From contig JAGLSE010000036.1 of the NCBI GenBank assembly GCA_023135905.1, forward strand, positions 1 through 35,742: a stretch of 35,742 bases of DNA, in the 5' to 3' direction. Positions 12,080 through 35,742 of this stretch are shown here, one piece after another. The DNA is from Candidatus Omnitrophota bacterium. Lineage in GTDB: Bacteria; Omnitrophota; Gorgyraeia; Duberdicusellales; 4484-171. The translations under genes were made by a program, and so were the position numbers. Numbering within the stretch: the stretch's first letter is position 1; each line of letters opens with the position of its first letter. Under the pieces are notes generated by a model. That model saw only the letters and a list, made by a program, of their open reading frames with translations. It was not told the DNA's origin and did no database searches.

Positions 12080-12350
12080 TATTTTCACTCTTTACCAACC
12101 CTATATATTAAATAAGGCTATATCCCTTTTTTAAATAAATACTAAACACTATCCCTACATCCTAAATTCTAAATGACTACAAAAATCAATACTAACTTCA
12201 AAGACATTTAAAATATTAAATAGCAAACTTAAAGCCTCTTAAACTGTTAATAAACTCAATATCTTTAACTTATTTTTTTTATACAATCTTTATCATTACT
12301 TATAAGAACATATTACTACTCAATTTAATCTAATATTTACCAACTTACTT

Positions 12351-13388: not shown

Positions 13389-13470
13389 AATTATTACAAA
13401 TAAATTTTACCAGAAAATTTATATTTTACTCTTTTCTTCTTAATCTATTCACCACTTTACAACCAAATCC

Positions 13471-14118: not shown

Positions 14119-14256
14119 TTGGTTTACTTTATTTTTCGATTAATTACTCTAAGCCAGATTACAACTGGCTCTTCTGCAATTATCCAAAAAACTCCTGACT
14201 TACAACAAATACATTAACCAAATACTTTTATTTTTTTATTATCCTAAACTTGTTTA

Positions 14257-14700: not shown

Positions 14701-14742
14701 AAAAAGTTAAATAACTTTCCTAATAAATTAATCTTTATTTGC

Positions 14743-15138: not shown

Positions 15139-15176
15139 AATTTCCTCCTACCTTGTATATTTTTATTTTTAAAAAA

Positions 15177-15346
15177 ATCAACTACCCCTCAGCAAGCTAC
15201 GGGGGTATCAAAGGTTTCCCCTAAATACCTTTTCCGCGGTAAACTTCGGGGAATTAAACCCGAGATCCTTCGACTCGTTTTACTCGCTCAGGATCAATTC
15301 GACTACAGTTTTTCTCCGAAAAATCTAAGTCTCATAGATTAAATTT
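15177..15346. repeat. ~170-bp structured dispersed repeat, copy A
   Basis: The first of three copies (others 23522-23690 and 25782-25954), all in the same orientation and all between minus-strand genes. Order of conserved blocks on the plus strand: TACCCC...GGGGTA hairpin, TTCCCC...GGGGAA hairpin with a central CCGCGG, AATTAAACCCGAGATCC, then a hairpin GATCCT...AGGATC around CGACTCGTTTTACTCG, and CTCCGAAAAATCTAAGT. It lies between gspF and gspG inside the operon. Confidence 0.9.
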
Positions 15347-15434
15347 CGTACTAAAAATAAACTCTAAATTCTAAACGAATACAAAAACGATTTCCTCCTA
15401 AACCTTTTAAGCCCTTTTCGATCTTTTAGCTAGA

Positions 15435-16673: not shown

Positions 16674-16759
16674 ATTTTCTCTATATATAAAAATCTAGAT
16701 TATTCAACAACTTAAAAATTATCCCAACCTCATACTCATAAAATTCCCTAAGCTGATTC

Positions 16760-16999
16760 TTATTTTTTTTCTACCAAAACAACCAGCTTATTCCCTTTAA
16801 CTCTGGCAAGACCTCTATCTATTTTTAAGGTAAACTCTTCTCCTAATCTAACCCAACCTTCGGTTAAACAAGCTATCAAAGGCTGATGAAAATCTAAAAT
16901 AGAGATCTCCCCCTCTTCGCTAGGTAAAATAGCCGAACTAACCATCTCTTCTCTTATTATTTTTGCCATTTTTATATCTATAACTAAGGCTTTAAACAT
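16760..16999 (-). CDS. atpC: F-type ATPase epsilon subunit, beta-sandwich domain only
   Basis: A 79-aa protein matching the N-terminal beta-sandwich of epsilon: VSSAILPSEEGEISILDFHQ (about residues 20-39) corresponds to the family VVLPGEEGEFGVLPGH, followed by LIACLTEGWVRLG and RGLARVKGNKLVVLVE. Typical epsilon is about 130-140 aa with a C-terminal two-helix domain that inhibits ATP hydrolysis; that domain is missing and the frame stops right after the sandwich. It begins 3 bp after the gspE stop, so it is co-transcribed with gspE, not placed directly behind atpD as usual. The remaining domain is enough to bind gamma and the c ring. Confidence 0.85.
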   Translation of the reverse strand: MFKALVIDIKMAKIIREEMVSSAILPSEEGEISILDFHQPLIACLTEGWVRLGEEFTLKIDRGLARVKGNKLVVLVEKK

Positions 17000-17002
17000 A
17001 TT

Positions 17003-18751
17003 TTATTCCATTTGGGTAATCCTCATTACCTCATCTACGGCACTGACACCTTCTAAAACTTTTTTCCAGCCTGAGATACGCAGAGTCCGCATTCCCTGTT
17101 GAATTGCTTTGACTCTTATTCTATCTGACGATGCTTTCTCTAATATCAACTCTTTTATTTCTTTGCTCAATACCAATATTTCATAAATAGCAATTCTATC
17201 ATTATACCCGGTAAAATTACATTCTTCACACCCCTGACCTTTATAAAACCTAACAGCATCTGCCTTTATCCCTGTCACCTCAGCAAATTCTTTCTTATTA
17301 TTATAAAAGACTTTTATCTCTTCAATAATTTTATCTTTAACTACCTTATTCACAGTATCATCTTCTTTTTTGCAATTTGGACATATAACCCTCAACAACC
17401 TCTGGGCGATAAATGCCTCTACTGAAGAAGCCACTAAAAATGGTTCAATACCTATATTTACCAATCTATTTACCCCTCCCGCGGAATCATTTGTATGTAT
17501 AGTCGAAAAAAGCAAATGTCCTGTCAAAGCGATTCTAATAGCTAATTCAGCTGTTTCAAAATCTCTAACCTCTCCCACCATCATTATATCAGGGTCATGT
17601 CTTAAGGCGCTCTTTAATCCTTGAGCAAAAGTAAACCCTATTTCTGGTGATATTTGTATCTGAGATATCCCTTCGAGCTCATATTCAACAGGATTTTCTA
17701 AAGTGATTATTTTATTAGTAACATTTTTAATTTTATTCAAACAAGCGTATAAAGTAGTTGTCTTTCCACTTCCTGTTGGTCCAGTAACAAAAATTACTCC
17801 ATGAGTTTTACTTATCAATTTTTCCAAACTTACTAAATCATCCTTTTCTAAACCTAATTTAGCAAGATCAAAAAGCATATTCGTCGGGAGAATCCTAATT
17901 ACTATTCCCTCTCCATGACGAGTAGGTAAAACAGAAATTCGCAAATCAAGTTTTTCCTTACCTATCCTTACTATAGCCCTTCCGTCTTGAGGAAACCTTC
18001 TTTCAACAATGTCTAATTTAGCCATTATTTTTACACGAGAAATAATGGCCGAAAAAAAAGTATTCATCTCCGTGGGGACATTCGCATCATAAAGAATCCC
18101 ATCAATACGATACCGAAGCCCCATCCGTTCTCTATAAGGTTCTATATGTATATCTGTTGCCCTTTTTTGATAAGCCTCTAATATTATTTGATTTACCAGC
18201 TTTATTACAGATGCGTTTTCCGATGATGTTTCTATATTTTCTATCTTATCAGTTAAATTCTGAATATTGTCATTTTTTTCTTCCTTTTGAACCTTATCTA
18301 TAATACCTTCTACTGTTTCCGCGCCCAATCCATAAAAATTCCTAATAGCAGCCATTATCTCTTTCTCACTAGCCAACAAGGGTTTTATATCACACTTTAA
18401 AAACAAACTCAAATCATCTACTGAACAAAAAGGGTCATAAGTGGCAATTGTAAGTTTATTATTCTTATATTCTATAGGCATAATTTTATAATACCGACTA
18501 AACTTAGCTGGAACTTTTTCAACAGCTTCCGGAGAAATCTTAATATCTTTAAGATTAACATAAGGAATACTCAAATGTTCCGAAAGAACTTTTAAAACTT
18601 CTTCTTCGGTGATTAGACCTTTTTTAATAAAAGTTTGATTAATCATCTCGGTAGAGTGACACTGTTCCATTAAAGCTTCCTCTAATTGATCAGAGGTAAT
18701 TAACCCTTTTCTCAACAATATTTCTCCTATTTTCATTCTCATTTTATCCAT
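17003..18751 (-). CDS. gspE: Type II secretion/type IV pilus assembly ATPase GspE
   Basis: A hexameric cytoplasmic ATPase powering pseudopilus assembly. The 582 aa hold an N-terminal T2SSE_N region (about residues 1-140, GEILLRKGLIT and KKGLITEEEVLKVLSEHL) and a catalytic domain with Walker A GPTGSGKTTTLYA, an Asp box with DIHIEPYRERMGLRYRIDG, Walker B DPDIMMVGEVRD and a His box. A CPNC...CEEC zinc knuckle follows near residues 460-515. The start has AGGAGA 8 bp upstream. The gene lies between atpD (44 bp upstream) and atpC (3 bp downstream), an unusual mix of two ATPase systems in one operon. Confidence 0.97.
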   Translation of the reverse strand: MDKMRMKIGEILLRKGLITSDQLEEALMEQCHSTEMINQTFIKKGLITEEEVLKVLSEHLSIPYVNLKDIKISPEAVEKVPAKFSRYYKIMPIEYKNNKLTIATYDPFCSVDDLSLFLKCDIKPLLASEKEIMAAIRNFYGLGAETVEGIIDKVQKEEKNDNIQNLTDKIENIETSSENASVIKLVNQIILEAYQKRATDIHIEPYRERMGLRYRIDGILYDANVPTEMNTFFSAIISRVKIMAKLDIVERRFPQDGRAIVRIGKEKLDLRISVLPTRHGEGIVIRILPTNMLFDLAKLGLEKDDLVSLEKLISKTHGVIFVTGPTGSGKTTTLYACLNKIKNVTNKIITLENPVEYELEGISQIQISPEIGFTFAQGLKSALRHDPDIMMVGEVRDFETAELAIRIALTGHLLFSTIHTNDSAGGVNRLVNIGIEPFLVASSVEAFIAQRLLRVICPNCKKEDDTVNKVVKDKIIEEIKVFYNNKKEFAEVTGIKADAVRFYKGQGCEECNFTGYNDRIAIYEILVLSKEIKELILEKASSDRIRVKAIQQGMRTLRISGWKKVLEGVSAVDEVMRITQME

Positions 18752-18795: not shown

Positions 18796-21080
<2,285 letters not shown>

Positions 21081-21129
21081 AGCTCTATTCTTTATTTACT
21101 ATAATTTTCTCGCAAGTTTTATGTTTTTT

Positions 21130-22617
21130 CTACAAACTTTTGTTCCTTACTAAAAAAATCTCAAAAGCTTCGTTCAATCTTTCTTTTACATCTTGACTCA
21201 AATCTTTATCTGAAGCAATCTTTTCAACCAACTGTGGTTTATACTTAATCAACCACCTATAGATTTCTCTTATAAACTTCTCTCTTAAACTATTTTCCAT
21301 AATCTGAGGCAATTCTATATAAAAAGAATAAAACAAAACAATAATTTCTTCAATTGGCACTGGCTTATTTTTATCCTGAATAAATAAAGCTCTTAAAGCT
21401 TGTCCTTTCTTAATTTTAGCTTCCACTTCTTCTGAAAGTTTAGTTCTCATACGGGTAAGACTAGCTAGCTCTTTATATCTGGCATTCTCAACCTTCAGTA
21501 GTTGAGAAACTTTCTTTATTGCTGAACACTGCACTTTACTCCCAATTCTGGAAACAGAAAGACCTAACTCAATAGCTGGTTTAAATCCTTCTTTAAAAAG
21601 TGTTGTATTTAAATATATCTGTCCATCAGTCATAGAAATCAGGTTAGAAGGAATAAGCCCAGTCACGTCGCCTTCTAAAGTTTCAGAAATTGGTAAAAAG
21701 GTCATAGACCCGCCGCCCAACTCCACATTTAATTTTGCTGCTCTTTCTATAAGCTGAGAATGAAGATAAAACATATCTCCGGGATAAGCTTCCCTGCCGG
21801 GAGATCTCTCTAAAAGTAAAGATAACTCTCGATAAACCCAAGCATGCCTGGTTAAATTATCAAAAACTACCAAAACATCTCGTCCCTGGTACATAAAATA
21901 TTCGCCTAAAGCACAAGCAGCATAAGGCGACACATACTGTTCTCCTGGAGAAGAAGAAGCTAAAGCTCTCACAATAATTGTGTAATCCATAGCCCCGCCC
22001 CTTACCAACTCCTGAACAGATTTTAAGAAAGACGAAGAACTTATTCCTATAAAACAAAAAATACAAACAACATCTTTACCCTTCTGATTTAATATTGTAT
22101 CAACTGCCAAAGTCGTTTTACCGGTAACTCTATCACCAAGAATTAATTCTCTTTGCCCTTTACCTATAGGAATTACGGTATCAATTATTTTTATCCCAGT
22201 AAGAAGAGATTCCTCTATAGGATCTCTATCCATGACTCCCGGAGCATCCCTAAATATTGGATAAAAATCGTTCTCAGTAATATCCCCTAGCCCATCTAAA
22301 GGCTGACCAAAAGAATTCACTACCCTCCCAATAAATTCATTACCCACCGGTATATCAAAACTATCCTCATCCCCATAAACAACATCTCCAATCCTCAATT
22401 TTGTTTCATCCCCTAAAACTAAAGCATGTACCTCATTTTTATTAAACCCAATAACTAAACCTAACAAATCCAGACCTAACTCAAGCATCTGACCATTACT
22501 ACAAGAAGGCAACCCTGTTATCTTTACTATACCTTTTTTAATTTCTTTAATAACTCCGGTATCCTTTATTTCCAATGAAAAAATATCATCGTTTACTTTA
22601 TTTTTTTTATCTTTCAT
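21130..22617 (-). CDS. atpA: Divergent F-type ATPase alpha subunit
   Basis: The non-catalytic nucleotide-binding subunit of F1, 495 aa. P-loop GDRVTGKT lies at residues 161-168; the family reads GDRQTGKT, so a conserved Gln is Val here. Also present are GAMDYTIIVRA, SPYAACALGEYFM, SPGREAYPGDMFYLHSQLIE, GGGSMTFLPI and SVSRIGSKVQ with the arginine that reaches the catalytic site. The N-terminus (about residues 1-25) is short and lysine-rich and lacks the usual amphipathic helix that binds delta. It is preceded by the b-delta fusion gene and followed 49 bp later by atpG. Confidence 0.95.
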   Translation of the reverse strand: MKDKKNKVNDDIFSLEIKDTGVIKEIKKGIVKITGLPSCSNGQMLELGLDLLGLVIGFNKNEVHALVLGDETKLRIGDVVYGDEDSFDIPVGNEFIGRVVNSFGQPLDGLGDITENDFYPIFRDAPGVMDRDPIEESLLTGIKIIDTVIPIGKGQRELILGDRVTGKTTLAVDTILNQKGKDVVCIFCFIGISSSSFLKSVQELVRGGAMDYTIIVRALASSSPGEQYVSPYAACALGEYFMYQGRDVLVVFDNLTRHAWVYRELSLLLERSPGREAYPGDMFYLHSQLIERAAKLNVELGGGSMTFLPISETLEGDVTGLIPSNLISMTDGQIYLNTTLFKEGFKPAIELGLSVSRIGSKVQCSAIKKVSQLLKVENARYKELASLTRMRTKLSEEVEAKIKKGQALRALFIQDKNKPVPIEEIIVLFYSFYIELPQIMENSLREKFIREIYRWLIKYKPQLVEKIASDKDLSQDVKERLNEAFEIFLVRNKSL

Positions 22618-22706
22618 ACCTTTTAGTTTTTCTTAACTATTTTTTCTCTAGAAACATCTAATTTAAAACCACTACTCCCTAACTACTGATTTCCTTATCT
22701 AAAATT

Positions 22707-23441
22707 TTATTGCATTTTTAATCTTTCTCTCATCAAAGGCAAAATCTTTTTGATCCTATTTTTTATTGACCCATCAACAATAAATCTTTCTAACTTTAAA
22801 ACAAACCCGGCAACCATATCTTTATCCACATCTTCTTTAATTTCAATGTCTTTTCCAAATTTCAATGATAAAACTTCCCTTAATTTATTTTTTTGGTTTA
22901 CCTCTAATAGGGCAGCACTAACAATATTAGCTTCATTCCCGACAATTATTATTTTTCCTTTTTCTAAATTTTCTATATCATTAATCAATTCCTCAAAAAC
23001 ATCCCTATGCAAACTATCTCTGCCCTGTTCTGTAAAAATATATTTAATTATATCTACAGCCAAGGAAATAGTTGTTTCCTGGCTCTTCTGAACAATTTGT
23101 TTATCTTTATTCTGGCAATCTTTAATAGCTTCATTAATTAACCGCTTAGCTTCCTTTTTAGCTTGATCAATTATATCCTCTTTTTTTCTTTCGCCTTCCC
23201 TAATTGACTGTTCTGTGATTTCTTCACCTTGAGATCTTGCCTCTTCAATCATTCTTTTTACTTCCCTATCGGCCCTCTTAAAATCTTCTTTGAATATTTT
23301 TTCTCTTTCCAAATTTTCTTTATTTGACTGTTTAAGCCTATTCAAAGCCCTACTGATATGATTATAAAACAGCCATTTCAAAAAAAGAACAATACCCACA
23401 AAGGTAAAAATCTGTACAATCAATAACTGCAATATAAACAT
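22707..23441 (-). CDS. F-type ATPase b-delta fusion subunit
   Basis: A peripheral stalk protein of 244 aa. One N-terminal membrane helix (about residues 4-24, LIVQIFTFVGIVLFLKWLF) leads into a long charged coiled coil (about 30-130, EARSQGEEITEQSIREGERK) as in subunit b. The C-terminal ~90 residues contain VDKDMVAGFVLKLERFIVDGSIKNRI, matching the delta C-terminal signature (IGGFVVRIGDRVIDGSV-type). The delta N-terminal helical domain is absent. b-delta fusions are known in actinobacteria. The start has AGAGGAGA upstream. A ~170-bp repeat (copy B) separates this gene from atpE. Confidence 0.85.
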   Translation of the reverse strand: MFILQLLIVQIFTFVGIVLFLKWLFYNHISRALNRLKQSNKENLEREKIFKEDFKRADREVKRMIEEARSQGEEITEQSIREGERKKEDIIDQAKKEAKRLINEAIKDCQNKDKQIVQKSQETTISLAVDIIKYIFTEQGRDSLHRDVFEELINDIENLEKGKIIIVGNEANIVSAALLEVNQKNKLREVLSLKFGKDIEIKEDVDKDMVAGFVLKLERFIVDGSIKNRIKKILPLMRERLKMQ

Positions 23442-23521
23442 GCCATCTCCTCTTGTCTATTCAGGTATTATAAAAATATCTTTGGTATTTTTAAAATACT
23501 AAAATCTTACCAAATCTAAAA

Positions 23522-23690
23522 TAATCAACTGCCCCGCGCCAAGCTACGGGGGTATCGAAACTTTCCCCTAAATAACTTTTCCTCGGTAAACCGCGGGGAA
23601 TTAAACCCGAGATCCTTCGACTCGTTTTACTCGCTAAGAATCAATCCGCCTACAGATTTTTCTCCGAAAAATCTAAGTTTCATTTATCAA
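23522..23690. repeat. ~170-bp structured dispersed repeat, copy B
   Basis: Same block order as copy A. Differences often fall inside stems: the first hairpin is GCCCC...GGGGG, and the third reads GATCCTT...AAGAATC, where one C-A mismatch interrupts the stem. It lies between atpE and the b-delta gene. Confidence 0.9.
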
Positions 23691-23730
23691 AATCCAATAA
23701 AAAGTTCCTACCCCAAAATTCAGCTTAATA

Positions 23731-23940
23731 TTATCCAAAAAGCATATATATCAACAAAATAGCAATTATTGCAATTGATTCCGCAAAGATAAATGCCAAC
23801 ATCATAGCTGTTAATATTTTAGGAGAAGCGGCAGGATTTCTTCCTAAAGCTTTTATACTGGAGTATCCTACCGCAGCAATAACAGCTGACGCCCCTAAAG
23901 TTGTAATAAGCACAATTAAGATAGTAGTTATATTTTTCAT
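23731..23940 (-). CDS. atpE: F-type ATPase c subunit (membrane ring proteolipid)
   Basis: A 69-aa two-helix hairpin. Helix 1 (about residues 4-32) is followed by the polar loop ALGRNPAASPK, where the family has RNP. Helix 2 (about 43-68) carries the ion-binding Glu54 in FAESIAI. Glu is followed by Ser, as in sodium-binding rings, but the helix-1 Gln of the Ilyobacter sodium site is not present (Ile21 by alignment on the Arg-x-Pro loop), so ion specificity is unclear. It is the first ATPase gene of the cluster. No subunit a gene lies beside it; the upstream neighbour, 22 bp away, is a REC-GGDEF gene. Confidence 0.92.
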   Translation of the reverse strand: MKNITTILIVLITTLGASAVIAAVGYSSIKALGRNPAASPKILTAMMLAFIFAESIAIIAILLIYMLFG

Positions 23941-23962: not shown

Positions 23963-24859
23963 TTAATTATCATCTTTTTCATTATAGACACAAAATCTAT
24001 CTTTACCCTCTTTCTTCGCTCTATACAAGGCTTTATCGGCACACTTAACTATGCCCACCCTTGTATCAGAACTATCCAAAAAAGTAGACACCCCGGTACT
24101 AATCGTTATCGGTAATTTTTTCTTGACCAAACTTACAACTCGTTGCGCTACTTTTATCGCGTTATTTTGTTCTGTTCTAGGTAAAATTACAGTGAACTCT
24201 TCACCACCATATCTAAAAACCAGATCATCGTCTCTTAACAAACTAACCAATGCGTCTGCTGTTCCGCGAAGAATTTTATCTCCTTCTTGATGCCCTTTAG
24301 TATCATTAAATTTTTTAAAATTATCAATATCTACCATTAACATGGAAAAAGTCTGAGGGTAACGTCGCATATGAGCAATATGCCAGTCCAACATCTCATA
24401 AAAATAACGATGATTATATACACCAGTAAGTCCATCTATGAGAGACATTTCTTTATAATAATTACCTTTGCCAGCTTGAATCAAAAGACAAGCATTTTCT
24501 ATTGCCCTCTTAATTATCAACTTAGCTTCATCAACATTTAAGGGTTTCAATAAATACCAAAAAGCACCTTGCTGAAGAGCCTTAACCCCTAAATTTAAAA
24601 AAGAATAACTCGTAATAGCTACGATATTAATCGATCCAGATGTCCTCTTTACTCTTTTAACGAATTCTATACCGCTCATATCAGAAATTTGTAATTCCGT
24701 TATAATTAGCGGACAATAAAAATTTTTAATCATGTTTAAAGCTTCTTTTCCTGTGGTAACTCTCCAAATTTTATAAATACCTTTTTCTAAAATATCTTTT
24801 AACAAAGAAAAAGTGTTATCATCCTCTTCAATTATTAAAACATTAAACTCTTTATTCAT
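23963..24859 (-). CDS. REC-GGDEF protein with Glu at the phospho-acceptor position
   Basis: A 298-aa signalling protein. The receiver domain (about residues 1-120) has the acidic cluster EEDD, switch residues ITSYSF and Lys in LLKPLN. The phospho-acceptor strand reads PLIITELQISDMSG, with Glu where Asp is expected. The GGDEF domain (about 140-298) is complete: LTGVYNHRYF, DIDNFKKFND, GGEEF, and the inhibitory RxxD site as RDDD just before it. It is therefore predicted to be an active diguanylate cyclase making c-di-GMP. ATG 24857-24859 is chosen because GGAGG lies just upstream; an in-frame TTG 18 bases earlier precedes that site. It lies 22 bp upstream of atpE and may be co-transcribed. Confidence 0.93.
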   Translation of the reverse strand: MNKEFNVLIIEEDDNTFSLLKDILEKGIYKIWRVTTGKEALNMIKNFYCPLIITELQISDMSGIEFVKRVKRTSGSINIVAITSYSFLNLGVKALQQGAFWYLLKPLNVDEAKLIIKRAIENACLLIQAGKGNYYKEMSLIDGLTGVYNHRYFYEMLDWHIAHMRRYPQTFSMLMVDIDNFKKFNDTKGHQEGDKILRGTADALVSLLRDDDLVFRYGGEEFTVILPRTEQNNAIKVAQRVVSLVKKKLPITISTGVSTFLDSSDTRVGIVKCADKALYRAKKEGKDRFCVYNEKDDN

Positions 24860-25141
24860 CCTATCCTCCGTTAACAATTATCAGCTAAAATTACTCACAA
24901 ATTTGTAACCCTTTAATCCTATTAAAGAAAATATTTAATTTTCCTTGACCCATTTTACTCATTCTTTTTCCAATAAATACAAACTATCGAATTTATAAAC
25001 TTTTCTTATCGCTTCCCTCCAATCTTTTCATCACGTAAAAATCTACAAAAAACTATAAAATTATTTTTACCAAATTTTTGCAAAAAACTAGACTAGCCGA
25101 CTGAGAATAAAAATCCAGGGGAGAAATATCAAGACAATCCT

Positions 25142-25636
25142 TTATAACCCTGACAACTCCTCTAAAGACCTATATTGTCCTTTAGCCTCAAACATATAAT
25201 TATGCCTATCCTGCTCCTGTAAAACTGCCACACCTTCATCCAACCATAAAGGAAGTTTCTTATTAAACCCTACAAATTCTCTAAAAATAATATGTCCAAT
25301 CTCATGGAAAAGTATATACTCAAAACTGTTCCAGTTTCACATAAGCAGATATTTCTTTTTTATAACATGAACCTGACCTTTAGACCAACCTATAGCCTTG
25401 GTATTCTTTTAATAATCTGGCTGATCACGATAAAAATAAATTTTACATCTATTTTCCCAAGTCCAAAAAATAGACCTCTTTAACCCTAAATGTTCTGTAA
25501 TCTCGTCATGATAATTTTCGGCTTTACTAATAGTTTCTTCAACAAACACTTCCATATCTTCCCGATAACAAACAACAAATAGATCATACTTAAAAACTTA
25601 TTTTTTATTCTCTTTTATTCCTATTTTAAAATTCAT
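25142..25636 (-). pseudogene. Peptidase MA-like zinc metallopeptidase pseudogene (three in-frame stops)
   Basis: One reading frame of 164 codons from ATG 25634-25636 to TAA 25142-25144 encodes a recognisable peptidase MA-family (gluzincin) protein. It is interrupted by TAA at 25598-25600, TAA at 25409-25411 and TGA at 25337-25339. Homology signals occur in every segment: SKAENYHDEITEHLGLKRS, FWTWENRCKIYFYRD, GWSKGQVHVIKKK, then the zinc motif HEIGH in LFHEIGHIIFREFVGF and LPLWLDEGVAV with the third Glu ligand. No frameshift is needed. Window genes use all three stop codons normally, so recoding is unlikely; this is a gene decayed by point mutation. The N-terminal secretion signal expected of relatives is also missing. 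Confidence 0.85.
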
Positions 25637-25677: not shown

Positions 25678-25712
25678 AAAAAAACCAAATCCGAAAATCG
25701 AATCTGGTTTTT
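25678..25712 (-). terminator. Intrinsic terminator of the giant-protein operon
   Basis: A 14-bp stem runs from 25711-25698 to 25692-25679 with a 5-nt loop. In the minus-strand RNA both mismatches become G-U pairs, so the stem is continuous only on that strand, and it runs directly into T6. It lies downstream of the gene at 25963-26706 and of repeat copy C. Confidence 0.75.
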
Positions 25713-25781: not shown

Positions 25782-25954
25782 AATCAACTACCCTCGCGAC
25801 AAGCTACAGTAGTATCGAAGGTTTCCCCTAAATAACTTTTCCGCGGTAAACTGAGGGGAATTAAACCCGAGATCCTTCGACTCGTTTTACTCGCTCAGGA
25901 TAAATTCTACTACAGATTTTTCTCCGGAAAATCTTAGTCTCATTGGTTAAATTT
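25782..25954. repeat. ~170-bp structured dispersed repeat, copy C
   Basis: Same block order and orientation as copies A and B. The first hairpin is decayed (the GGGGG strand reads CAGTAG). The second stem is slightly longer (TTCCCCT/AGGGGAA). It lies directly downstream of the 247-aa membrane protein gene and before its terminator, so it is part of that 3' untranslated region. Confidence 0.9.
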
Positions 25955-25962
25955 ATTATTTA

Positions 25963-26706
25963 CTAATCATTTATTTCATTATCTTCCGCTTTAATCTTAG
26001 GTTGCTCTTTTTCTTCTACCTGTTTATACCAAATCATAAAAAATACTAATGACAGAAATCCTAATGCAAAAACAACACCCAATATTACTTTCCAGCTGGC
26101 TTTAACAAAGACCCTTCCAGCCCCTGACCCTTCAGAAATTTTTGTCTTCATTAGCATCTTTTCTAAATTGGTCAGATTCGCTTTAATCTCAATTAACTTT
26201 TCCATATTCTGTCTATACACAGAAATATGTTTCTGAGGCAAAGTATCTACCGCTTGGTTTTGGTTATCTATAATATCTATTTTTTTCTCCTCCATATTTT
26301 TGAAAATCTCTGCCGCAGTTTCATAGTAAATAGTGTTTTTAAATTTATCTAAAACCTCTTTACCTTGAACAATTAATTCCTCTAGCTCTATTTCCAAAAT
26401 AAACCAAACATCTTTTATTTCCACCTGACGAGCAAGACTTTCTCCAGGTTTAAGTGTTACTTCTTTGTACACAAAATAAAGTTCTTTATTAATATCATAA
26501 TCAATTTTCAAATCACCTAAATCAACAATATTGTCGGGGGTTACCTCTTTAGGAAGAAAAGCTTTAATCCGTGCTTCTTGCGTCTTTGTTTTAGATGGAT
26601 TGACAATTACAGCTTTTAAAAAAACATTTCCCGCATAACTGGGGAAACTTAAAAACCCAAAAATAAAACACCCCAAAATAAACAAAAAAGATTTTTGCTT
26701 GTTCAT
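25963..26706 (-). CDS. Secreted coiled-coil protein with C-terminal membrane anchor
   Basis: A 247-aa protein of unknown function. Order of parts: signal peptide (residues 1-25, ending PSYA|G); a beta-rich domain (about 26-100) with NPSKTKTQEARIKAFLP, DLGDLKIDYD and LKPGESLARQVEIKDVW; an alpha-helical/coiled-coil region (about 105-195); a membrane helix (about 205-227, VILGVVFALGFLSLVFFMIWY); and a short charged tail rich in Lys/Glu/Asp. The topology is outside-N, inside-C. Residues KTQ...LP, LKPGES and DVW look like a conserved domain of cell-surface proteins, but I cannot name a family. It follows the giant gene by 88 bp with a GGGAGA site, so it is probably co-expressed and a possible membrane partner for the giant proteins' coiled-coil ends. 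Confidence 0.8.
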   Translation of the reverse strand: MNKQKSFLFILGCFIFGFLSFPSYAGNVFLKAVIVNPSKTKTQEARIKAFLPKEVTPDNIVDLGDLKIDYDINKELYFVYKEVTLKPGESLARQVEIKDVWFILEIELEELIVQGKEVLDKFKNTIYYETAAEIFKNMEEKKIDIIDNQNQAVDTLPQKHISVYRQNMEKLIEIKANLTNLEKMLMKTKISEGSGAGRVFVKASWKVILGVVFALGFLSLVFFMIWYKQVEEKEQPKIKAEDNEIND

Positions 26707-26794: not shown

Positions 26795-29700
26795 TTACTT
26801 CGCTACTTTTCCCTTCTCCGGTTTAAACAAAGGCAAAGACGGCTCATCTTCTTGAAGCCCTACTTCTTTCTCCCTCATCTTAGAATTAATACTGTTTTCC
26901 TTTTTTTCAATAACATCATCCTTCAAATCACCTGTTTCACCTATAGGTCCTCTATTCTTTATTTTTAAATTGTTAGACTCAGCATCTACAGCTTCAAAAT
27001 CCTCTGTAATAGTAGACTCCATCCAAATGGTTACGATCGGTTCATCATTTATTCGTTCTGACATATCTTGTTGAAGCTCAATTAAAGCTCGGATTTCCTG
27101 AGTTTTGTTTCTTATATACCCCACATTTAAAGCCTGAGCTTCAGATACCTCATAAATCTCTTCAATCTTAACACCTTGGCCACTACTAATTTCTTTTAAC
27201 TTATCAAAAGCCAAAGATAACTGGTCATAAATAGCATCAATTGTGTTGGTCGTCATATCTTTTATTCTACCGCTCATTGAGTTCAACCCCTCCACACTTT
27301 TTATAATCGGAGATATAGCATTAATAACACTATCTAAATTTGCTCCTACATTCTCTAAACTGCTGGTGTCTATACCAGCTAACTGACCCATAGTGGTTGT
27401 AGCGGCGGCACCGATTTGTTCTAAGTCGGTAGAGATTACATCAATATTTATGCCGTCAAGAGTCCCTTTGGCCTCTTCCTTGCAAATAATGGTATGTTCG
27501 TTTTTCCCCCAAATAAATTTCACACTATACCCATAAATACCTGAGCCCAATGCAGCCTCAGGCATTGTCGCCTCGTTTATCCGCAACGTATTATTACCGT
27601 CATAAACACTAATAACCGGAGTAAGGCCGGTATCGGTCTTGTATCTAACGGTTAACGTGCCATTTTCTTTAATATAACTTTCCTGATTGAGAATACTCGA
27701 GGCTGCCCCACGGACAATAATACTAGCTAAGGTGTCGCCGGTCTTTAGATCTCCGCTCCCGACAAGAGTTACAATTTCGGTTGATGTGGTAGTTACCTCT
27801 GTCTGTGTTGCCATGGCCGCAGCTGATATCTCATCCTCCATAGATTCCTGGGCAGTGGTTATTGCCGTCCTAGTGTCAACGGCTTCTATAGATACGCTTG
27901 TATTGACATCTGAAACTAAACTTGAAACTGCACTAACATCAGTAGAAACATCTGCTATGGAACTATCATAGATAAACGGACTTTCACTTCCCCTAAATAT
28001 ATTACCGGCTTTGTCTACTGCTTTTACCCTAATAAAATAAGTCTCTTTATCCATCCATACAGGAAAAACAATATTATCATTCCACAAAGAAGTATCGTTG
28101 CTATCAGCGACACTATGTGTAGTAGCAAGCCACTGCTCGGTTGTAGCATCCCAATCAGTGCCGTCCCAATAATAGTTTATACCACCGGAAAGTTTGCGTA
28201 TATAGAATACCGCTTGATTTATTCCTACCCCACTTCCGCCAATGTTATCTCCGAGATCTCCCCGAAACACGCTGGGTATAGCATCCAAACTGATGTAACT
28301 CGTTTTTGCCGGCGACGAGATACTCGCTGTTGCCGGGGTTGTAATATCTATAACTACTGCCACACTTTCCTCACTGCCTTCGTTGCCTACATTATCCTTA
28401 ACCTTTACACGAACGGTGCGATTTCCTTCTGGCTGCCCAGTGTATTGAATCGTAGTAGCTGATACCCAGTCGGCATACGAATCCAAATCCATTTTATATG
28501 CGTATAAATCAACCGCCAGGCCACTGGCAGCGTCTGTTGCTCCGCTTACTGAAAAATCTATAGTCGTATCGTCATCGTAACCAATACTCGGGTCAAAACC
28601 ATTACTATTACTATCAGTATCTGCGATCAAACTAAGGGTATATCCAATGGGAGCAGTTGTATCTTTGATCATTGTTATACTTACGGGCGTAATATCGGCA
28701 TTGCCGGCGTAGTCATAAGCAGCTACAGTTATTGTTCCGCTGTTATCGGCGCTGCTTAGATTATAGCTCCGGCTATAGGAACTGCTGAGATCATTAACCG
28801 CGCTATCTCCTCCAAACGCGCCAAAAACCATCTTCTGCGCTCCATCATGCCCACTATCAGCACCGGTTACGGTTATAGTTATTTGGGTATCCGTAATGCC
28901 CATTCCTTCACTAAAATAAACCGTCTGCCCGATAATGTAGGTATAATCCGTTCCTGTGCCACTCTCGCTTAAACTTCCGAAAGTAGTGGTTGGGGCAACA
29001 GTATCCTTTGTGTGTGAGCCACTCGATTCGGTTACCGTTGCATCGGCAAAAACATTACCGGCTACATCGGTTATATTGCTTGAAGAAAAAATTACCTTAA
29101 TCCCAGCATCTATTTGAGCATTACTGATATAGGTAGCGTTATCCGCCCCATTTGGGATAGCTAAAGTTAAAGTTACTGTGTCATTGGATAAAGACGCTGA
29201 AGCAATATTATAAGTAATTACCCCGGAATTATCCCTAATCAGCCAATTACCTACGGTTTCAGCCATGGTGCTATCCAAATTCTCCGCGGCCTGGATGGTT
29301 ATTGTGTTCGGTTGAACATTATTATTAACATCAATGTTAGCGGCGGGAATAGTAGGTACGGTATTGTCTACGGTAAAAGTTGCTCCACTGGTTGGGGCGG
29401 AAGTAACTACATTGCCGGCTAAGTCCGCACCTGTACTTAAAGCTACTGTTGCTGTGCCGTCGCCTGCTCCTACGGCATAAACATAAGTATAAACCGTAGC
29501 TGAAGTTCTAATCATGTCTGCCGCGAGAGTGTCGACTCCGGAAATAGATATCTGAGGCACGAGAGCCTCAACCATATCTTCATTGAAGGTTACGGTTATA
29601 GTTAATAGATCGCCTGATTTTACTATACCGTCAGTAGGCGTATAAGTTATAGCCGCAGTGGGGGCAACATCATCCACAGATTCGGCATCATAAATAGAAT

Positions 29701-32700
29701 ATAGGTTATTATCATAAGTAAAGTCTGCTGTTCCCGGCCAGGGCTGGGCATAATCCCTTGCTTCACTAACCCCTTGATTGGGATCTCCTTCATCAAAAAA
29801 CATTAAAATATCATTGCTGTTCGCTATGGCCACCAAAGCATAATCAATAGCCTGCAAACTTAGCGATGGACTATATGAACCTTCATACCAGCCTTTTCCT
29901 AAAGGCGGTACAGCTATCTCTACTGCCTGGCCAACCAGGCTTAAATCGGAATCTTCATATATCGCATATTTAGCTGTATAGGTGACACTGTCGTTGGTGT
30001 TCTCTAAATATGCGATTATCGAATTAAGGTCCATCTCATATGCAGTAAATATAGAACCCCTGGCTACGTTTGTCATGGGGATAGCGCTTGAACCTATGGT
30101 CATATACCCGAACTCAGGATCAACTATTACCGGATAAGCCGCGTTCTCAAGCCAATCTTTATCCACAGCAATTATTATCTCCCCTCTCCCCTCTTCTACG
30201 CTCTGCCCTATGCCCTCTGCGCTATGCGGCGCTACAACTATCTCCATCCCCCCCCATATCCAATCTCCATTATTATCAATAATCTTCGGCCGGTAAATAT
30301 GAAAGGCTTTACCAGTGCCGTATTTTCCATCCTTTTTGGAATCATGATAAACAGCGTAAGAACCTATCACCTCATCCGGTCTGACTACGCCTGCATCTAT
30401 CTCCGCCTGAGTTAATTGTCCCTGATAATAGAATTTTAATCCCTTGCTCTTGATAGGAAAACTAAAAACGTTTGAATCGGGAATTTCTTTTAAAACCAGC
30501 TCAAACTCTAAGCCCCCGTTTTCGTTGAGGATAAAGGTGGATCCTTTTTTCGCGGCATTTTGTTTTATGATTTCCCTGCGGCCTTTTTTATAGAAACGGC
30601 TGCCTATCTGGGGCGAATCCCATTCTATTTTATCCGTCTTTTTACCTACTGTCTTGTTCTTCCGGGGTATATGCTCTTCAGGAAATTCCACGCTAAGAGA
30701 ACACTCTTCGCCCCAACGTTTAAGCTTTGCGTGAGGTTTAAAATCTTCGGTTTCAAAATCGCCAATCTCCGCTTCATCTTCGCCAAATTTAATCGTATAT
30801 CTTTTCCCTAGGCTCTTATCTTCTTTCTCTTTAGTTTCAGCCTCCTCTGCTGCTTCTTCTTCACCTTCCGATGCCTCCCCGATTGTATTAACGCTAAGAA
30901 TATGTCCATCCCTGGTGGTCATACCGCAAAGGTTTGTCGCAGTAACAAAAATATTCGCTGTTGTCTTTATACCCTGCGATAACTCATATCGACAAATATA
31001 AATATTGTTTTTATTTTCGTCAAACATCTTAGCTTGGACATCGCCGCCGAAAGACTCAAGGTTACAGCTTACCGAAAAACCATCGGGATTATTGTCGCCT
31101 TCGACCGAGTTATCCCATTCAACCACTATAGCATCACCTAAGATGTATACTCCTTGATCTCCTGTGGCCCCGTAAGTAGAAATATTACCTGAAGTAACTA
31201 TGGGGGCAAGAGAATAGTCAAGTTTAATCTGTTCAATCTCGTATTGCGTATTGAGTATTGCGTCGTGCGTATTAGAGGAAAAGTTGGCACGCAATAATAA
31301 TTTTTTACCAACAGTAAAATCAAAAGGCGCGCTGTAGGCCCTGCCGCTTTCACAGGCCTCTTTCCAGCTTAAACCCCCGTCCGCGGAAATATCTATTCGT
31401 ATCTCATCACTTGTTACTTGCCTGTGCCCGTTAGGGTATGACTTGCCTGTGCCCGTTAGGGTATGACTGGTGACTTTTATGGTGGGAGTGATTGCGCTAA
31501 TATTACAGGTAGTGAAAATAGGGGCAGTAATATATTGTCCACTATCCGGTATACGCTCTACGCTATCCGCTATCACAACGTTTCCATTCTCAGCCAATAT
31601 GGTATCTAAAAACTCGGCCAAGCTAACCTCTTCTTCATCTGCTGAGACACTGATATAAGGCTCAGACTCAGCAATCTTGCGTACCCTTACCCAATCATAA
31701 TAGGCGACACTGCCTTCGCCTGTTTCTAACCCAATATATCCCTGTTTTAATCCGCCTTCATCATTATAACTTATCTCCGCCTCAAAATTATCCACCGCTA
31801 GGGTGGACAAATCCGGGTATCTTTTAAAATTTAAATCTTCTCCCTTGGCAATAATCCGGTAATTATAAAAAACACCGGCTATAATAGTTTTAGCCGCATT
31901 TACCTTGACAATATTATCTATAAACAAGCCATGCTCACCTCCTTCATAAACTGAAGAATAGGCAATCTGGTTAGTGGCCTCAGGAAAAGATTCTTCTTTC
32001 GTAGTTCTTATAATGAAACGAATTCCATTGCCTGTACTCGCCTTTGCCCGGTATTCAATGATGCCGTCCTTGATCCGGTAAGTTTTGGATAAGATTTTAG
32101 AGCCGTCTAACTCCAATTGTCCGCCGGAAATGGCCGCTGCCCCCCGAATAATTTCCCATTTTCCTAAATCTAAATCAGCTTCGCTAAAATCTTCAAAAAA
32201 GTCAAAAACGCTCTCTCCGTCAGATAAGCTTTCCGCCTCAGAATTTCCATAATACATATATATAGGAAAGTCCTCAGAAGGTATCTGAGGAATCTTTACC
32301 CAAAAGGCGGCTGTCTTATCGGGGCTTTCGCCGGTAACACTCTCCAAATAATAAGGCAAAATAGTTTCCCCGTCAGCCGCGGTAAAACGAATATCCGAAA
32401 AATCCGCCTTTACATTTCCCTCACACCCCACTTGCGCTCCCGGAGCACAAGTATTGGTTGACTGGCAAACTGTTATGGATATTTGATAATTGAATAAATC
32501 TCCTTCTGAGACTGCTTCCTCGCTATCCTTCCTCGCGATGACGATACTTTTTCTAAACTTAAACCCGGAAAGTTCCGGACTGCCAAAAGTACCGCCTTCA
32601 CCCTCTATATCGGTATAAACGATTTTTATCTCAGTAAGTTCACTATCTACCCCAAGCGTCGCCCGACATCTAATCTGATCCCCTGTAACCTGCCCTCTGT

Positions 32701-33088
32701 AATCTAACGGCACCCCGTAAGCTGCCTGAGTATAATCCTGGCCGTTATTGGTGCTTACTTCTAAATTTACTTCTCCTTTAAACTGCCAGGCGGCAGTAAG
32801 AGTTTCTATCGGGCCTTTGGCCTTAATCGCCTCTGTGAGCTCGTACACCGAATTTACCGTAAGTTCAGATAAAAGATAATCACCGGCTCCATCTGCGCGC
32901 CAAACTAAAGGAGACTTATGAACTACCGTTTCAATTGTCTGCCCTTCACTTGTGCCCGCCAGGGTATAACTAAGGCTACTAATGATAAAAGACAAACAAA
33001 GGCCTGTTAAAAGGAAAAGCCCCGCGACCAGAGATATTCTTCCTTTTCCCAAAACCTGTTTTTTGTCTTTTATTTTTTCGCTTTTCAT
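26795..33088 (-). CDS. Giant secreted multidomain Ig-like surface protein (2097 aa)
   Basis: An N-terminal signal with a long charged n-region (cleavage near residue 44, YTLAG) is followed by several modules. They are a beta domain (46-165), a DUF2341-type domain (about 176-280, ending FPIYMYYGNSEA), a concanavalin/LamG-like domain (about 285-470), beta modules (to about 730), an acidic linker (about 731-758), and a large beta domain ending NAAYPVIVDPEFGY (about 760-990). After a further beta domain come bacterial Ig-like repeats starting APTAAITYTP (about 1140) and VPTIPAANIDV. The C-terminal part from about 1368 is shared with the upstream paralogue and ends in coiled coil (about 1900-2097). 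No membrane anchor, sortase motif or lipobox is seen. A role in adhesion or surface layer is inference. Four kinds of DNA repeat lie inside the frame. Confidence 0.85.
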   Translation of the reverse strand: MKSEKIKDKKQVLGKGRISLVAGLFLLTGLCLSFIISSLSYTLAGTSEGQTIETVVHKSPLVWRADGAGDYLLSELTVNSVYELTEAIKAKGPIETLTAAWQFKGEVNLEVSTNNGQDYTQAAYGVPLDYRGQVTGDQIRCRATLGVDSELTEIKIVYTDIEGEGGTFGSPELSGFKFRKSIVIARKDSEEAVSEGDLFNYQISITVCQSTNTCAPGAQVGCEGNVKADFSDIRFTAADGETILPYYLESVTGESPDKTAAFWVKIPQIPSEDFPIYMYYGNSEAESLSDGESVFDFFEDFSEADLDLGKWEIIRGAAAISGGQLELDGSKILSKTYRIKDGIIEYRAKASTGNGIRFIIRTTKEESFPEATNQIAYSSVYEGGEHGLFIDNIVKVNAAKTIIAGVFYNYRIIAKGEDLNFKRYPDLSTLAVDNFEAEISYNDEGGLKQGYIGLETGEGSVAYYDWVRVRKIAESEPYISVSADEEEVSLAEFLDTILAENGNVVIADSVERIPDSGQYITAPIFTTCNISAITPTIKVTSHTLTGTGKSYPNGHRQVTSDEIRIDISADGGLSWKEACESGRAYSAPFDFTVGKKLLLRANFSSNTHDAILNTQYEIEQIKLDYSLAPIVTSGNISTYGATGDQGVYILGDAIVVEWDNSVEGDNNPDGFSVSCNLESFGGDVQAKMFDENKNNIYICRYELSQGIKTTANIFVTATNLCGMTTRDGHILSVNTIGEASEGEEEAAEEAETKEKEDKSLGKRYTIKFGEDEAEIGDFETEDFKPHAKLKRWGEECSLSVEFPEEHIPRKNKTVGKKTDKIEWDSPQIGSRFYKKGRREIIKQNAAKKGSTFILNENGGLEFELVLKEIPDSNVFSFPIKSKGLKFYYQGQLTQAEIDAGVVRPDEVIGSYAVYHDSKKDGKYGTGKAFHIYRPKIIDNNGDWIWGGMEIVVAPHSAEGIGQSVEEGRGEIIIAVDKDWLENAAYPVIVDPEFGYMTIGSSAIPMTNVARGSIFTAYEMDLNSIIAYLENTNDSVTYTAKYAIYEDSDLSLVGQAVEIAVPPLGKGWYEGSYSPSLSLQAIDYALVAIANSNDILMFFDEGDPNQGVSEARDYAQPWPGTADFTYDNNLYSIYDAESVDDVAPTAAITYTPTDGIVKSGDLLTITVTFNEDMVEALVPQISISGVDTLAADMIRTSATVYTYVYAVGAGDGTATVALSTGADLAGNVVTSAPTSGATFTVDNTVPTIPAANIDVNNNVQPNTITIQAAENLDSTMAETVGNWLIRDNSGVITYNIASASLSNDTVTLTLAIPNGADNATYISNAQIDAGIKVIFSSSNITDVAGNVFADATVTESSGSHTKDTVAPTTTFGSLSESGTGTDYTYIIGQTVYFSEGMGITDTQITITVTGADSGHDGAQKMVFGAFGGDSAVNDLSSSYSRSYNLSSADNSGTITVAAYDYAGNADITPVSITMIKDTTAPIGYTLSLIADTDSNSNGFDPSIGYDDDTTIDFSVSGATDAASGLAVDLYAYKMDLDSYADWVSATTIQYTGQPEGNRTVRVKVKDNVGNEGSEESVAVVIDITTPATASISSPAKTSYISLDAIPSVFRGDLGDNIGGSGVGINQAVFYIRKLSGGINYYWDGTDWDATTEQWLATTHSVADSNDTSLWNDNIVFPVWMDKETYFIRVKAVDKAGNIFRGSESPFIYDSSIADVSTDVSAVSSLVSDVNTSVSIEAVDTRTAITTAQESMEDEISAAAMATQTEVTTTSTEIVTLVGSGDLKTGDTLASIIVRGAASSILNQESYIKENGTLTVRYKTDTGLTPVISVYDGNNTLRINEATMPEAALGSGIYGYSVKFIWGKNEHTIICKEEAKGTLDGINIDVISTDLEQIGAAATTTMGQLAGIDTSSLENVGANLDSVINAISPIIKSVEGLNSMSGRIKDMTTNTIDAIYDQLSLAFDKLKEISSGQGVKIEEIYEVSEAQALNVGYIRNKTQEIRALIELQQDMSERINDEPIVTIWMESTITEDFEAVDAESNNLKIKNRGPIGETGDLKDDVIEKKENSINSKMREKEVGLQEDEPSLPLFKPEKGKVAK
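30178..30235. repeat. Heptanucleotide array inside coding sequence (array 3)
   Basis: On the plus strand the units are CCCCTCT, CCCCTCT, TCTACGC, TCTGCCC, TATGCCC, TCTGCGC, TATGCGG: seven-base periodicity that drifts gradually. It encodes residues of about 952-971 (SAEGIGQSVEEGRGE), a low-complexity insert in the large beta domain. Confidence 0.75.
31237..31273. repeat. Heptanucleotide array inside coding sequence (array 2)
   Basis: Coding-strand units ATACGCA, CGACGCA, ATACTCA, ATACGCA, ATACGAG. They encode about residues 606-618 (NTHDAILNTQYEI) of the giant protein. The unit differs from that of arrays 1 and 3, though the period is the same. Confidence 0.75.
31416..31465. repeat. 25-nt element, exact tandem duplication in coding sequence
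   Basis: Two identical 25-base units (31416-31440 and 31441-31465; core TGTGCCCGTTAGGGTATG preceded by ACTTGCC). Because 25 is not a multiple of three, the two copies are read in different frames and encode different peptides, SHTLTGTGK then SYPNGHRQ, at about residues 542-558. Confidence 0.9.
31535..31577. repeat. Heptanucleotide array inside coding sequence (array 1)
   Basis: Coding-strand units TGATAGC, GGATAGC, GTAGAGC, GTATACC, GGATAGT, GGACAAT. They encode about residues 505-518 (IADSVERIPDSGQY) of the giant protein. Confidence 0.7.
32503..32542. repeat. Repeat-like GC-rich segment inserted in DUF2341-type domain
   Basis: The coding strand reads TCATCGCGAGGAAGG then ATAGCGAGGAAGCAG and TCTCAG. 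From memory it resembles the dispersed bacterial repeat type TCATTGCGAGGAG...GAAGCAATCTCA. It encodes about residues 183-196 (ARKDSEEAVSEGD), an extra stretch just after the usual FRKSIVI start of a DUF2341 domain. Only one copy is in the window, so the repeat identity is inferred. Confidence 0.45.
32948..32972. repeat. Diverged copy of the 25-nt element in the signal-peptide region
   Basis: ACTTG-TGCCCGCCAGGGTATAACT matches the 31416 unit apart from a 3-base gap and three changes. It encodes SYTLAGTS at the predicted signal-peptidase site of the giant protein. Confidence 0.6.
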
Positions 33089-33233: not shown

Positions 33234-35742
33234 TTAACGTTGTTCTTCGAGAGCTGATTGCTCTTCAAGTACTGTTTGCTCTTCGAGAACAGGTTGTTCT
33301 TCAGAAACAGATTGCTCTTCAAGAGCTGGTTGTTCTTCTGACTCAAACCAACTCTTAGTTATAGGCAAATCTCCTTCTCTTTCTATAATCTCTTTTTGAA
33401 GCTCAAGCATAGCCTTAATTTCTAAAGTCTTATTTTTAATATAATCTATGTCAATAACCTGGCCCTCGGAAAGAGCAGACATCTCATCTATCCTAAAGCC
33501 CTGCTCTTCACCAATCACTTTTAATCTTTCTATTACAATAGAAAGCGAGTCGTAGATAGCTTCAATATCCTTCTCGGTTAAACCCTTTATATCTTCGCTT
33601 AAAAAGCCTGAATCTTCTATGTCCTTCATAAGTAAACTAATAACGACATTTGCCTCAGTAATAGCCTCACTCGCCACGCTTATCTCATCACTATCCATAC
33701 TTGATATCTTGCTCGTAAAAGTTGAAGCGTTGGCATCAATTTGTTCTAAGTCGGTAGAAATTACATCAATATTTATGCCGTCAAGAGTCCCTCTGCCCTC
33801 TTCCTTGCAGATAATGGTATGTTCGTTTTTCCCCCAAATAAATTTCACACTATACCCATAAATACCTGAGCCCAATACAGCCTCAGTCATTTCCGCCTCG
33901 TCTATCCGTAGCGTATTCTTACCGTCATAAACACTGATAACCGGAAAGAGGCCCGTATCGGTCTTATATCTAATAGTTAAAGTTTCATTTTCTTTAACAT
34001 AACTTTCCTGATTAAGAATACGTGAGGCTGCCCCACGGACAAGAGTGCTAACCAAAGTCTCGCCAATCTTTAAATCTCCACTACCAATGAGAGTCATGGT
34101 TTCAGTTGCTTTAGTAGTTACCTTTGACTGTATTGCCGTAGCCGCAGCTGATATTTCATCCTCTATAGATTCCTTGGCAGTAGTTATTGCCGTCCTAGTT
34201 TCAACGGCTTCTGTCGATACGCTTGTCTTGACATCTGACACTAAACTTGAAACTGCGCTCACACCGGTAGAAATAACGGCTACGGAGCTATCATAAATAA
34301 ATGAACTTTCACTTCCTCTAAATTCATTACCAACATTATCCATAGCTTTCACTTTAACAAAATAAGTCTCTTTATCCTCCCATACAGGGAAAACGACATT
34401 ATCACTCCATAAAGAGATATCGTTGCTATTAGTGACATTATGCGTGGTAGCAAGCCACTGCTCGGTTGTGGCATCCCAATTAGTGCCGTCCCAATAATAG
34501 CTTGTGCCGCTAGAAATCTTGCTTAAATAGAATACTGCCTTGTTCGCTCCTGCTCCGGAACCACCAATATTATCCGAAACATCACCCTGGAACACGCTGG
34601 GGATAGCGTCCTTGCTGATATAGGTTATACCCATTGGCGCGACAACTATTGCTGTTACAGGAATGGAAGTATCCTTAACCATGGTGATTGTTACCGGTAC
34701 AACACTAACATTGCCGGGACCATCATAAGCGATCACGCTTATAGTACCACTAACGTCAGTATTAGTTATATTATATGTTTGGCTATAGTCACTGGCTATA
34801 TCCTCTATCTCGATATCTGCGCCAAACGCACCAAAAACTACTCTATCTATCTCACCTGTTACATCAGCCGCATTTACTGCTATCTCTATTTGGGTAGAAT
34901 TACTTCCCATTAAATCGCTGAAGTACACTGTCTGACCATTAACATAGGTATATTCCATTCCGGTTCCGCTTTCACCGATACTACCAAAACTAACAGTAGG
35001 AGAAGTTTTATCAAAACTTATACTTGAACCATCTGTAGTGGTAGTAACCACTATACCAAAATCTCCTGAAATATCAGAACAAACAATACTAAATGTCACT
35101 ATTCCTTCACTATCAAGTGAATTAATTGTATATGCCGCAGTCCAGATGTCCCCACTAATATTTGCATATTCTACAGTAGTATCATTTATAGCAACCCCGC
35201 CCGATTTAAAAGTTACTACTGGAGTCTGAATTGGTTCACTAGCAGTCAAGGTTAATGTAATCACATCACCCACTTTAGCCCATGTAGTTGGATTATTTTT
35301 ATTATCCGAAGCTATAGTTATTGTTGTAAGTGTGGGCTCTTGGGTATCTTTTATTATGCCGGCTTCAGAATCAGTGCCTTCATTGCCTGCTGCATCAGTA
35401 TCTCTTAAGTATAAGGTAAAGTTGCCTTCGTCTAAATCGTCGAATCCGGTAACTTCGCTTAAAGTGGTTTCTCCGCTGGTTGCCACAACCCAAATTACAT
35501 TATCAATAGAACATTGTGCGTTAGTTAATTCACTATCAGTAAAGGTGATCACCGTTGCGCCGTTTACATAGTCGTTAGTTTGCGGTGCGGTGATCTCAAC
35601 CACGGGAGCGATACTGTCATAGACAATGCTAAACTGGTCAGCTACAGCATTGTCATTATTCGCCGCGTCTACTGCTACTGCGGATGATATGTTTACTGTT
35701 ATTTCGCCGTCTGATGTCGGGGTTACGTTAAAGGTATATTCG
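33234..35742 (-). CDS. Giant Ig-like surface protein paralogue, 5' end outside window
   Basis: 835 C-terminal residues are visible; the frame stays open to the right edge, so the true start lies beyond it (a GTG at 35603 is internal). It consists of Ig-like repeats (for example APQTNDYVNGATV, TVSFGSIGESGTG) followed by a module (SYYWDGTNWDATTEQWLATTH), a helical segment, an ILNQESYVKENETLTIRYK beta domain, and a coiled coil. This whole stretch is homologous to residues about 1368-1900 of the downstream protein. The last ~33 residues are hexapeptide repeats (EEQPAL, EEQSVS, EEQPVL). No membrane anchor is seen. The function is unknown; a surface location is inferred from the domain types. Confidence 0.85.
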   Translation of the reverse strand, partial: EYTFNVTPTSDGEITVNISSAVAVDAANNDNAVADQFSIVYDSIAPVVEITAPQTNDYVNGATVITFTDSELTNAQCSIDNVIWVVATSGETTLSEVTGFDDLDEGNFTLYLRDTDAAGNEGTDSEAGIIKDTQEPTLTTITIASDNKNNPTTWAKVGDVITLTLTASEPIQTPVVTFKSGGVAINDTTVEYANISGDIWTAAYTINSLDSEGIVTFSIVCSDISGDFGIVVTTTTDGSSISFDKTSPTVSFGSIGESGTGMEYTYVNGQTVYFSDLMGSNSTQIEIAVNAADVTGEIDRVVFGAFGADIEIEDIASDYSQTYNITNTDVSGTISVIAYDGPGNVSVVPVTITMVKDTSIPVTAIVVAPMGITYISKDAIPSVFQGDVSDNIGGSGAGANKAVFYLSKISSGTSYYWDGTNWDATTEQWLATTHNVTNSNDISLWSDNVVFPVWEDKETYFVKVKAMDNVGNEFRGSESSFIYDSSVAVISTGVSAVSSLVSDVKTSVSTEAVETRTAITTAKESIEDEISAAATAIQSKVTTKATETMTLIGSGDLKIGETLVSTLVRGAASRILNQESYVKENETLTIRYKTDTGLFPVISVYDGKNTLRIDEAEMTEAVLGSGIYGYSVKFIWGKNEHTIICKEEGRGTLDGINIDVISTDLEQIDANASTFTSKISSMDSDEISVASEAITEANVVISLLMKDIEDSGFLSEDIKGLTEKDIEAIYDSLSIVIERLKVIGEEQGFRIDEMSALSEGQVIDIDYIKNKTLEIKAMLELQKEIIEREGDLPITKSWFESEEQPALEEQSVSEEQPVLEEQTVLEEQSALEEQR
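33240..33338 (-). repeat. 18-bp tandem repeats coding an EEQxxx C-terminal tail
   Basis: Five imperfect 18-base units, each starting with a GAAGAGCAA- or GAAGAACAA-type EEQ codon triplet, encode EEQPAL, EEQSVS, EEQPVL, EEQTVL, EEQSAL and a final EEQR. The other giant protein ends differently (PLFKPEKGKVAK), so this tail is specific to one paralogue and may vary in length between strains. Confidence 0.85.

Follow-up and report, generated by a model that had tools for sequence, protein, structure and literature searches.

An apparently decayed zinc peptidase gene in a conserved slot of the giant-protein, F-type ATPase and type IV pilus locus of Candidatus Omnitrophota

Introduction

The window analysed here is a stretch of 35,742 nucleotides from a Candidatus Omnitrophota genome. 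On its minus strand, between the GGDEF/ATPase genes and the genes for giant proteins, lies a frame of 164 codons (25636–25142) that encodes the HEIGH and LWLDEG motifs of a zinc peptidase and is interrupted by TAA (25600–25598), TAA (25411–25409) and TGA (25339–25337). An earlier note, made from the sequence alone, described this frame and its position, and we found both to be as described. It took the frame to be a pseudogene with three stops and no frameshift, recently decayed by point mutation, and suggested that the enzyme may once have processed the giant proteins. The locus raises the question of how this gene came to be broken and what an intact copy would do there.

Results

The pseudogene carries five frame changes

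When the window copy was aligned, allowing for frame changes, with each of six intact orthologues, five such changes recurred every time: near 25361 (25364 in one alignment), near 25324, near 25148/25145, near 25086 (25074 in one) and near 25027. Alignable homology starts at 25579 and ends between 24965 and 24941. Homology picked up by tblastn in another frame extends beyond the end of the 164-codon frame, for about 200 bases to about 24941, and the TAA that closes that frame (25144–25142) falls within the 3′ part. As the intact relatives are about 255–300 amino acids long and homology continues in other frames to about 24941, the length of 164 codons is a product of frame change. The coordinates of the pseudogene and its neighbours are collected in Table 1.

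Table 1. Features of the window discussed in the text
Feature	Position	Strand	Basis or remark
Peptidase (PEP) pseudogene	24941..25636	minus	Detectable homology 25579–24941; N-terminal signal-peptide region unrecognisable
HEIGH ... LWLDEG zinc-binding stretch, HExxH-x18-E, intact	25232..25306	minus	Sequence reading, column check
TAA, sole nonsense codon in the ancestral frame inside the conserved domain	25409..25411	minus	6/6 alignments
Other-frame stretch between two compensating frame changes, holding TGA 25337	25324..25361	minus	6/6 alignments (first bound 25364 in one)
3′ part with three further frame changes (near 25148/25145, 25086, 25027)	25027..25148	minus	tblastn, frame-aware alignment
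Terminator-like hairpin upstream of the pseudogene	25680..25712	minus	z −5.0; similar hairpins at some intact loci
Dispersed 149-bp repeat between N247 and the pseudogene	25782..25930	minus	
N247, 247 aa, conserved upstream neighbour	25963..26706	minus	Apparent signal peptide and C-terminal membrane helix (read by eye)
Giant protein, 2097 aa, DUF2341	26795..33088	minus	
Second giant protein, open at the window edge	33234..35741	minus	Ig-like domain match
Response regulator with GGDEF domain, conserved downstream neighbour	23963..24859	minus	
F-type ATPase genes	18796..23940	minus	
ATPase c	23731–23940	minus	
ATPase b-delta fusion	22707–23441	minus	
ATPase alpha	21130–22617	minus	
ATPase gamma	20187–21080	minus	
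ATPase beta	18796–20193	minus	
Type IV pilus/T2SS genes (GspE, GspF, GspG, pseudopilins, T2SSK, PilM/N, PilO)	10078..18751	minus	
ATPase epsilon	16760–16999	minus	Among the pilus genes

The three stops read as nonsense mutations in the earlier note do not all keep that standing. The TAA at 25409 does. The TGA at 25337 belongs to the stretch bounded by two compensating shifts, is out of the ancestral frame and so does not count as a nonsense mutation; the TAA at 25598 falls upstream of any homology that could be detected. The 5′ segment (25710–25585) scored about as high as shuffled sequence (25; shuffle mean 24), which leaves the signal-peptide region of the pseudogene unrecognisable; since signal peptides are poorly conserved in general, this says little. 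A further TGA (24961–24959) was left unaligned in four of the six alignments and lay beyond the aligned region in the other two.

Intact copies compared with each other needed no frame change in 33 of 35 comparisons and a single one in the other two, whereas all five comparisons that involved the window copy needed five. The window copy reached a frame-aware score of 512, well beyond chance, as 40 shuffles of the DNA gave no more than 38, and the 3′ segment alone (25150–24935) scored 129 against a maximum of 41 for 200 shuffles. The point-mutation decay of an undisturbed frame proposed earlier would suit a single frame showing only three stops across 164 codons, but can hardly be right: the five changes recur in all six alignments, and when frame changes were disallowed the best score to the same protein fell from 512 to 380 with seven stops crossed. 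To judge from these alignments, it was chiefly small insertions and deletions, and not stop mutations, that broke the gene. An alternative genetic code was considered and rejected, the neighbouring genes being full length under table 11.

The draft assembly comprises 150 contigs and a repeat of at least 40 copies adjoins the gene, and both features would suit an error of sequencing or assembly in a metagenome bin, with the gene intact in living cells. We consider such an error very unlikely, as six lesions fall in about 640 bp of one gene with no truncation of the ATPase, GGDEF and pilus genes nearby, and stop and frame lesions occur together. Moreover, among the matches listed in searches of 97 and 384 genomes, the window copy was the only peptidase with internal stops. 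Measured against intact orthologues from the same locus, the feature thus appears to be real and a pseudogene, as first proposed.

The zinc site is kept and the decay appears recent

Across 104 intact copies, 25 columns are conserved in at least 95%. The pseudogene can be compared at 23 of these columns and retains 21, the two histidines and two glutamates of the zinc site among them. The spacing from HExxH to the downstream glutamate is 18 residues in the pseudogene and 18 or 19 in 96 of the 104 intact copies (17 in two; the pattern was not found in six).

The identity of the pseudogene to four type-A orthologues, which is taken from frame-aware alignment and may be slightly flattering, was 48–52%, compared with 52–57% for the adjacent GGDEF protein, a gap of 1–6 points; for the orthologue from genome G136 the values were 52% and 57%. 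In intact pairs of type-A genomes the same difference ranged from −14 to +1 points. With HExxH-x18-E still present and no more divergence than in the GGDEF neighbour, the decay can be called recent relative to the divergence of the locus. The earlier claim of recent decay holds in this relative sense; the mode, mainly indel, is not the one that it named.

Intact relatives belong to a family of gluzincin-type peptidases

The Peptidase_MA_2 profile (PF13485) recognised all seven of the intact relatives above the Pfam curated cut-off (39.8–79.8 bits against 32.4), whereas the window copy itself reached only 12.4 bits. An NCBIfam search with the intact peptidases gave nothing above cut-off. A structure model of an intact orthologue (pLDDT 92) matched the peptidase units of Vibrio/Grimontia collagenases best (Z 18.8–19.1), the best of these with an rmsd of 3.3 over 224 residues; M30 and M1 enzymes gave Z values of about 12–15. 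The N-terminal hydrophobic segment of the intact protein suggests that it is exported. We know of no experimentally established function for these Peptidase_MA_2 members.

Matches at E ≤ 0.001 were present in 63 of 97 genomes, the window's own included, and a class-wide search found matches at E ≤ 1e-6 in 223 of 384 genomes. The organisms of the 80 loci kept were mostly Candidatus Omnitrophota. Members of the family have three kinds of neighbourhood: some sit between murG and murC, some between gspF and gspG, and some have N247 on one side and the GGDEF or ATPase genes on the other (the giant slot). Of 105 distinct matches, 48 were in the mur context, 40 in the giant slot, 13 in the gsp context and 4 in none of these ('other'). 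One fragment of 61 residues was dropped before a tree was built from 104 intact rows and the pseudogene. A single clade of that tree (support 100/98) united every one of the 40 giant-slot rows with an 'other' row and the pseudogene, whose closest subclade (100/90) comprised copies from G136, G064, G046, L163, L166 and L177. One other copy, an intact paralogue between murG and murC, was found in the window genome, which is 92.5% complete, so that a further copy could be missing. A check for such a paralogue had been suggested in the earlier note, as had one for an intact orthologue beside giant-protein genes of related genomes.

The window copy occupies a conserved peptidase slot

Such orthologues exist. 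The order at the intact slot in relatives is giant DUF2341/Ig-like proteins, the 247-residue membrane protein, peptidase, GGDEF regulator, F-type ATPase and type IV pilus genes. When 60 fetched stretches were classified by eye, an intact peptidase was in the slot in 26 (one, from G136, on a contig separate from its N247), N247 was followed by GGDEF or ATPase genes without a peptidase in 24, N247 was away from the ATPase in nine, and the slot was off the contig in one (the N247 contig of G136). The GGDEF gene was present at 17 of the 26 loci with a peptidase and 4 of the 24 without, as raw counts that ignore kinship. No peptidase relics were found in the gaps of the empty slots at L056, L058, L072, L063, L061 and L062.

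A tree of 63 loci and the window was built on AtpA, b-delta and GGDEF, with weak support at some inner nodes. One clade of 16 tips, of which two are fragments that do not show the N247 slot, lacked a giant-slot peptidase; its five peptidase-bearing tips carry gsp-slot copies. The clade of the window (48 tips) had 39 tips with an intact peptidase, eight without and one broken, the window.

The window AtpA is 66–76% identical to that of type-A loci from other families and about 54% identical to that of G001, from the same genus. The locus tree places G001 in its other half, although the mur-slot copies of these two genomes share 80% identity. The locus may thus have been transferred horizontally from another Omnitrophota family, the peptidase decaying in a host that did not need it, an account compatible with decay of a once intact enzyme. 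Ancient paralogues with differential loss would give the same picture, however, and the FastTree backbone is weak in places, with no donor identified. We regard transfer as evenly balanced, and either horizontal replacement or old paralogy could explain the closeness of the window locus to type-A loci of other families.

Other features of the locus

The intergenic 149-bp repeat has at least 40 copies in the genome, 85–92% identical, of which three are in the window (25782–25930, 23523–23670 and 15176–15322). One copy fills the gspF–gspG gap, where relatives have a peptidase paralogue; tblastn at E ≤ 0.01 found no peptidase relic in this gap. Elsewhere, 9 of 38 other genomes examined gave partial, weaker matches to the repeat only. 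The repeat gave no sign of a structured RNA (z 0.04 and −0.07), and an Rfam scan of the window at gathering thresholds returned only a tRNA. The upstream terminator-like hairpin was dropped as a cause of decay, intact loci having hairpins there too.

N247 showed a weak match to the mycoplasma MG_279/MG_280 family of NCBIfam (17.9 bits against a cut-off of 125), possibly from coiled-coil similarity only, and in some genomes the N247 match lies within open frames of thousands of residues. The F-type ATPase genes are less than 10 kb from type IV pilus genes. The epsilon gene follows gspE (window 16760–18751), apart from the other ATPase genes, and in many relatives precedes the c subunit. A single fusion protein combines the b and delta subunits, and one of the same size recurs at the loci of relatives. 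Genes resembling V/A-type ATPase A and B subunits occur elsewhere in the genome (L243, L244; G000 contigs C109, C10; types read by eye), and the F-type ATPase of the window is therefore a second system.

Discussion

Very probably, the broken gene is what remains of an orthologue of the secreted, gluzincin-type zinc endopeptidase (Peptidase_MA_2) that is conserved across Candidatus Omnitrophota; several indels and one nonsense change would have disabled it recently. The intact enzyme would be exported through its N-terminal hydrophobic segment. By the model, its catalytic unit has the fold shared by the peptidase units of collagenases and of M30 and M1 enzymes, and its gene clusters with those for giant surface proteins, F-type ATPase and type IV pilus. 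In the window genome the peptidase would have been disabled with its neighbouring genes left intact, leaving the murG–murC paralogue alone.

What the intact enzyme cuts is a more tentative matter. Its job may be to trim or mature giant surface proteins, or other envelope proteins of the attachment machine, outside the cytoplasm, a reading that we hold at somewhat less than even confidence. Processing of the giant proteins, as suggested in the earlier note, is plausible: with 26 of 60 loci carrying a peptidase in the slot and the giant-slot copies forming their own clade, linkage supports it and does not show the substrate. Close to even is our confidence that the intact enzyme is a general envelope or pilus-linked peptidase that does not act on giant proteins. 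The paralogues at murG–murC and gspF–gspG point that way, as do the 24 loci with no peptidase between N247 and the GGDEF or ATPase genes; the separation of the giant-slot clade from the other two contexts argues against it.

A broken gene is ordinary in itself. Its worth here lies in the conserved peptidase slot that it marks in the giant-protein/ATPase/pilus locus of Omnitrophota, where loci with and without a peptidase offer a natural comparison for asking about its role. The case also carries a lesson, in that a frame seemingly open save for stops can conceal compensating frameshifts.

Compared with the Peptidase_MA_2 family and other gluzincins of clan MA, the intact relatives agree in profile, in HExxH-x18-E and in the fit of the model to collagenase, M30 and M1 units; the window copy differs in being broken and below the cut-off. 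Closest at the level of the locus are the 'symbiotic' F-type ATPase/type-4a pilus loci of Omnitrophota, which the main text of one study describes, together with giant ORFs, as attachment traits and proposes for predation or symbiosis (PMC10066038). The window shares with them an F-type ATPase beside type IV pilus genes and giant proteins, and its genome has a second, V/A-type-like ATPase (type read by eye). The words 'peptidase' and 'DUF2341' are absent from that main text, and its passages on these loci were not found to describe a conserved peptidase slot. Within the parts of the literature searched, nothing was found on this slot, which seems undescribed there.

A further parallel is the mycoplasma MIB-MIP system, in which a Type 3 F1-like X0 ATPase works with a surface protease system (PMC12994834). 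The likeness lies in an atypical F-ATPase cluster encoded together with a surface binding protein and a protease; 'Omnitroph' is absent from the main text of that paper, and the two systems were compared through the literature. To our knowledge, MIP is not a gluzincin and so is of another protease family. The Omnitrophota locus, with its giant surface proteins, N247, GGDEF regulator and type IV pilus, might conceivably be a larger, independent counterpart. A non-respiratory F-ATPase would then power surface proteins for gripping a prey or host, which the exported zinc protease would cut or release, the window genome having just lost the cutting half and kept the gripping half; we think this improbable. 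The resemblances of the window locus to the Omnitrophota ATPase/T4aP loci and to MIB-MIP are best taken as analogies and not as membership.
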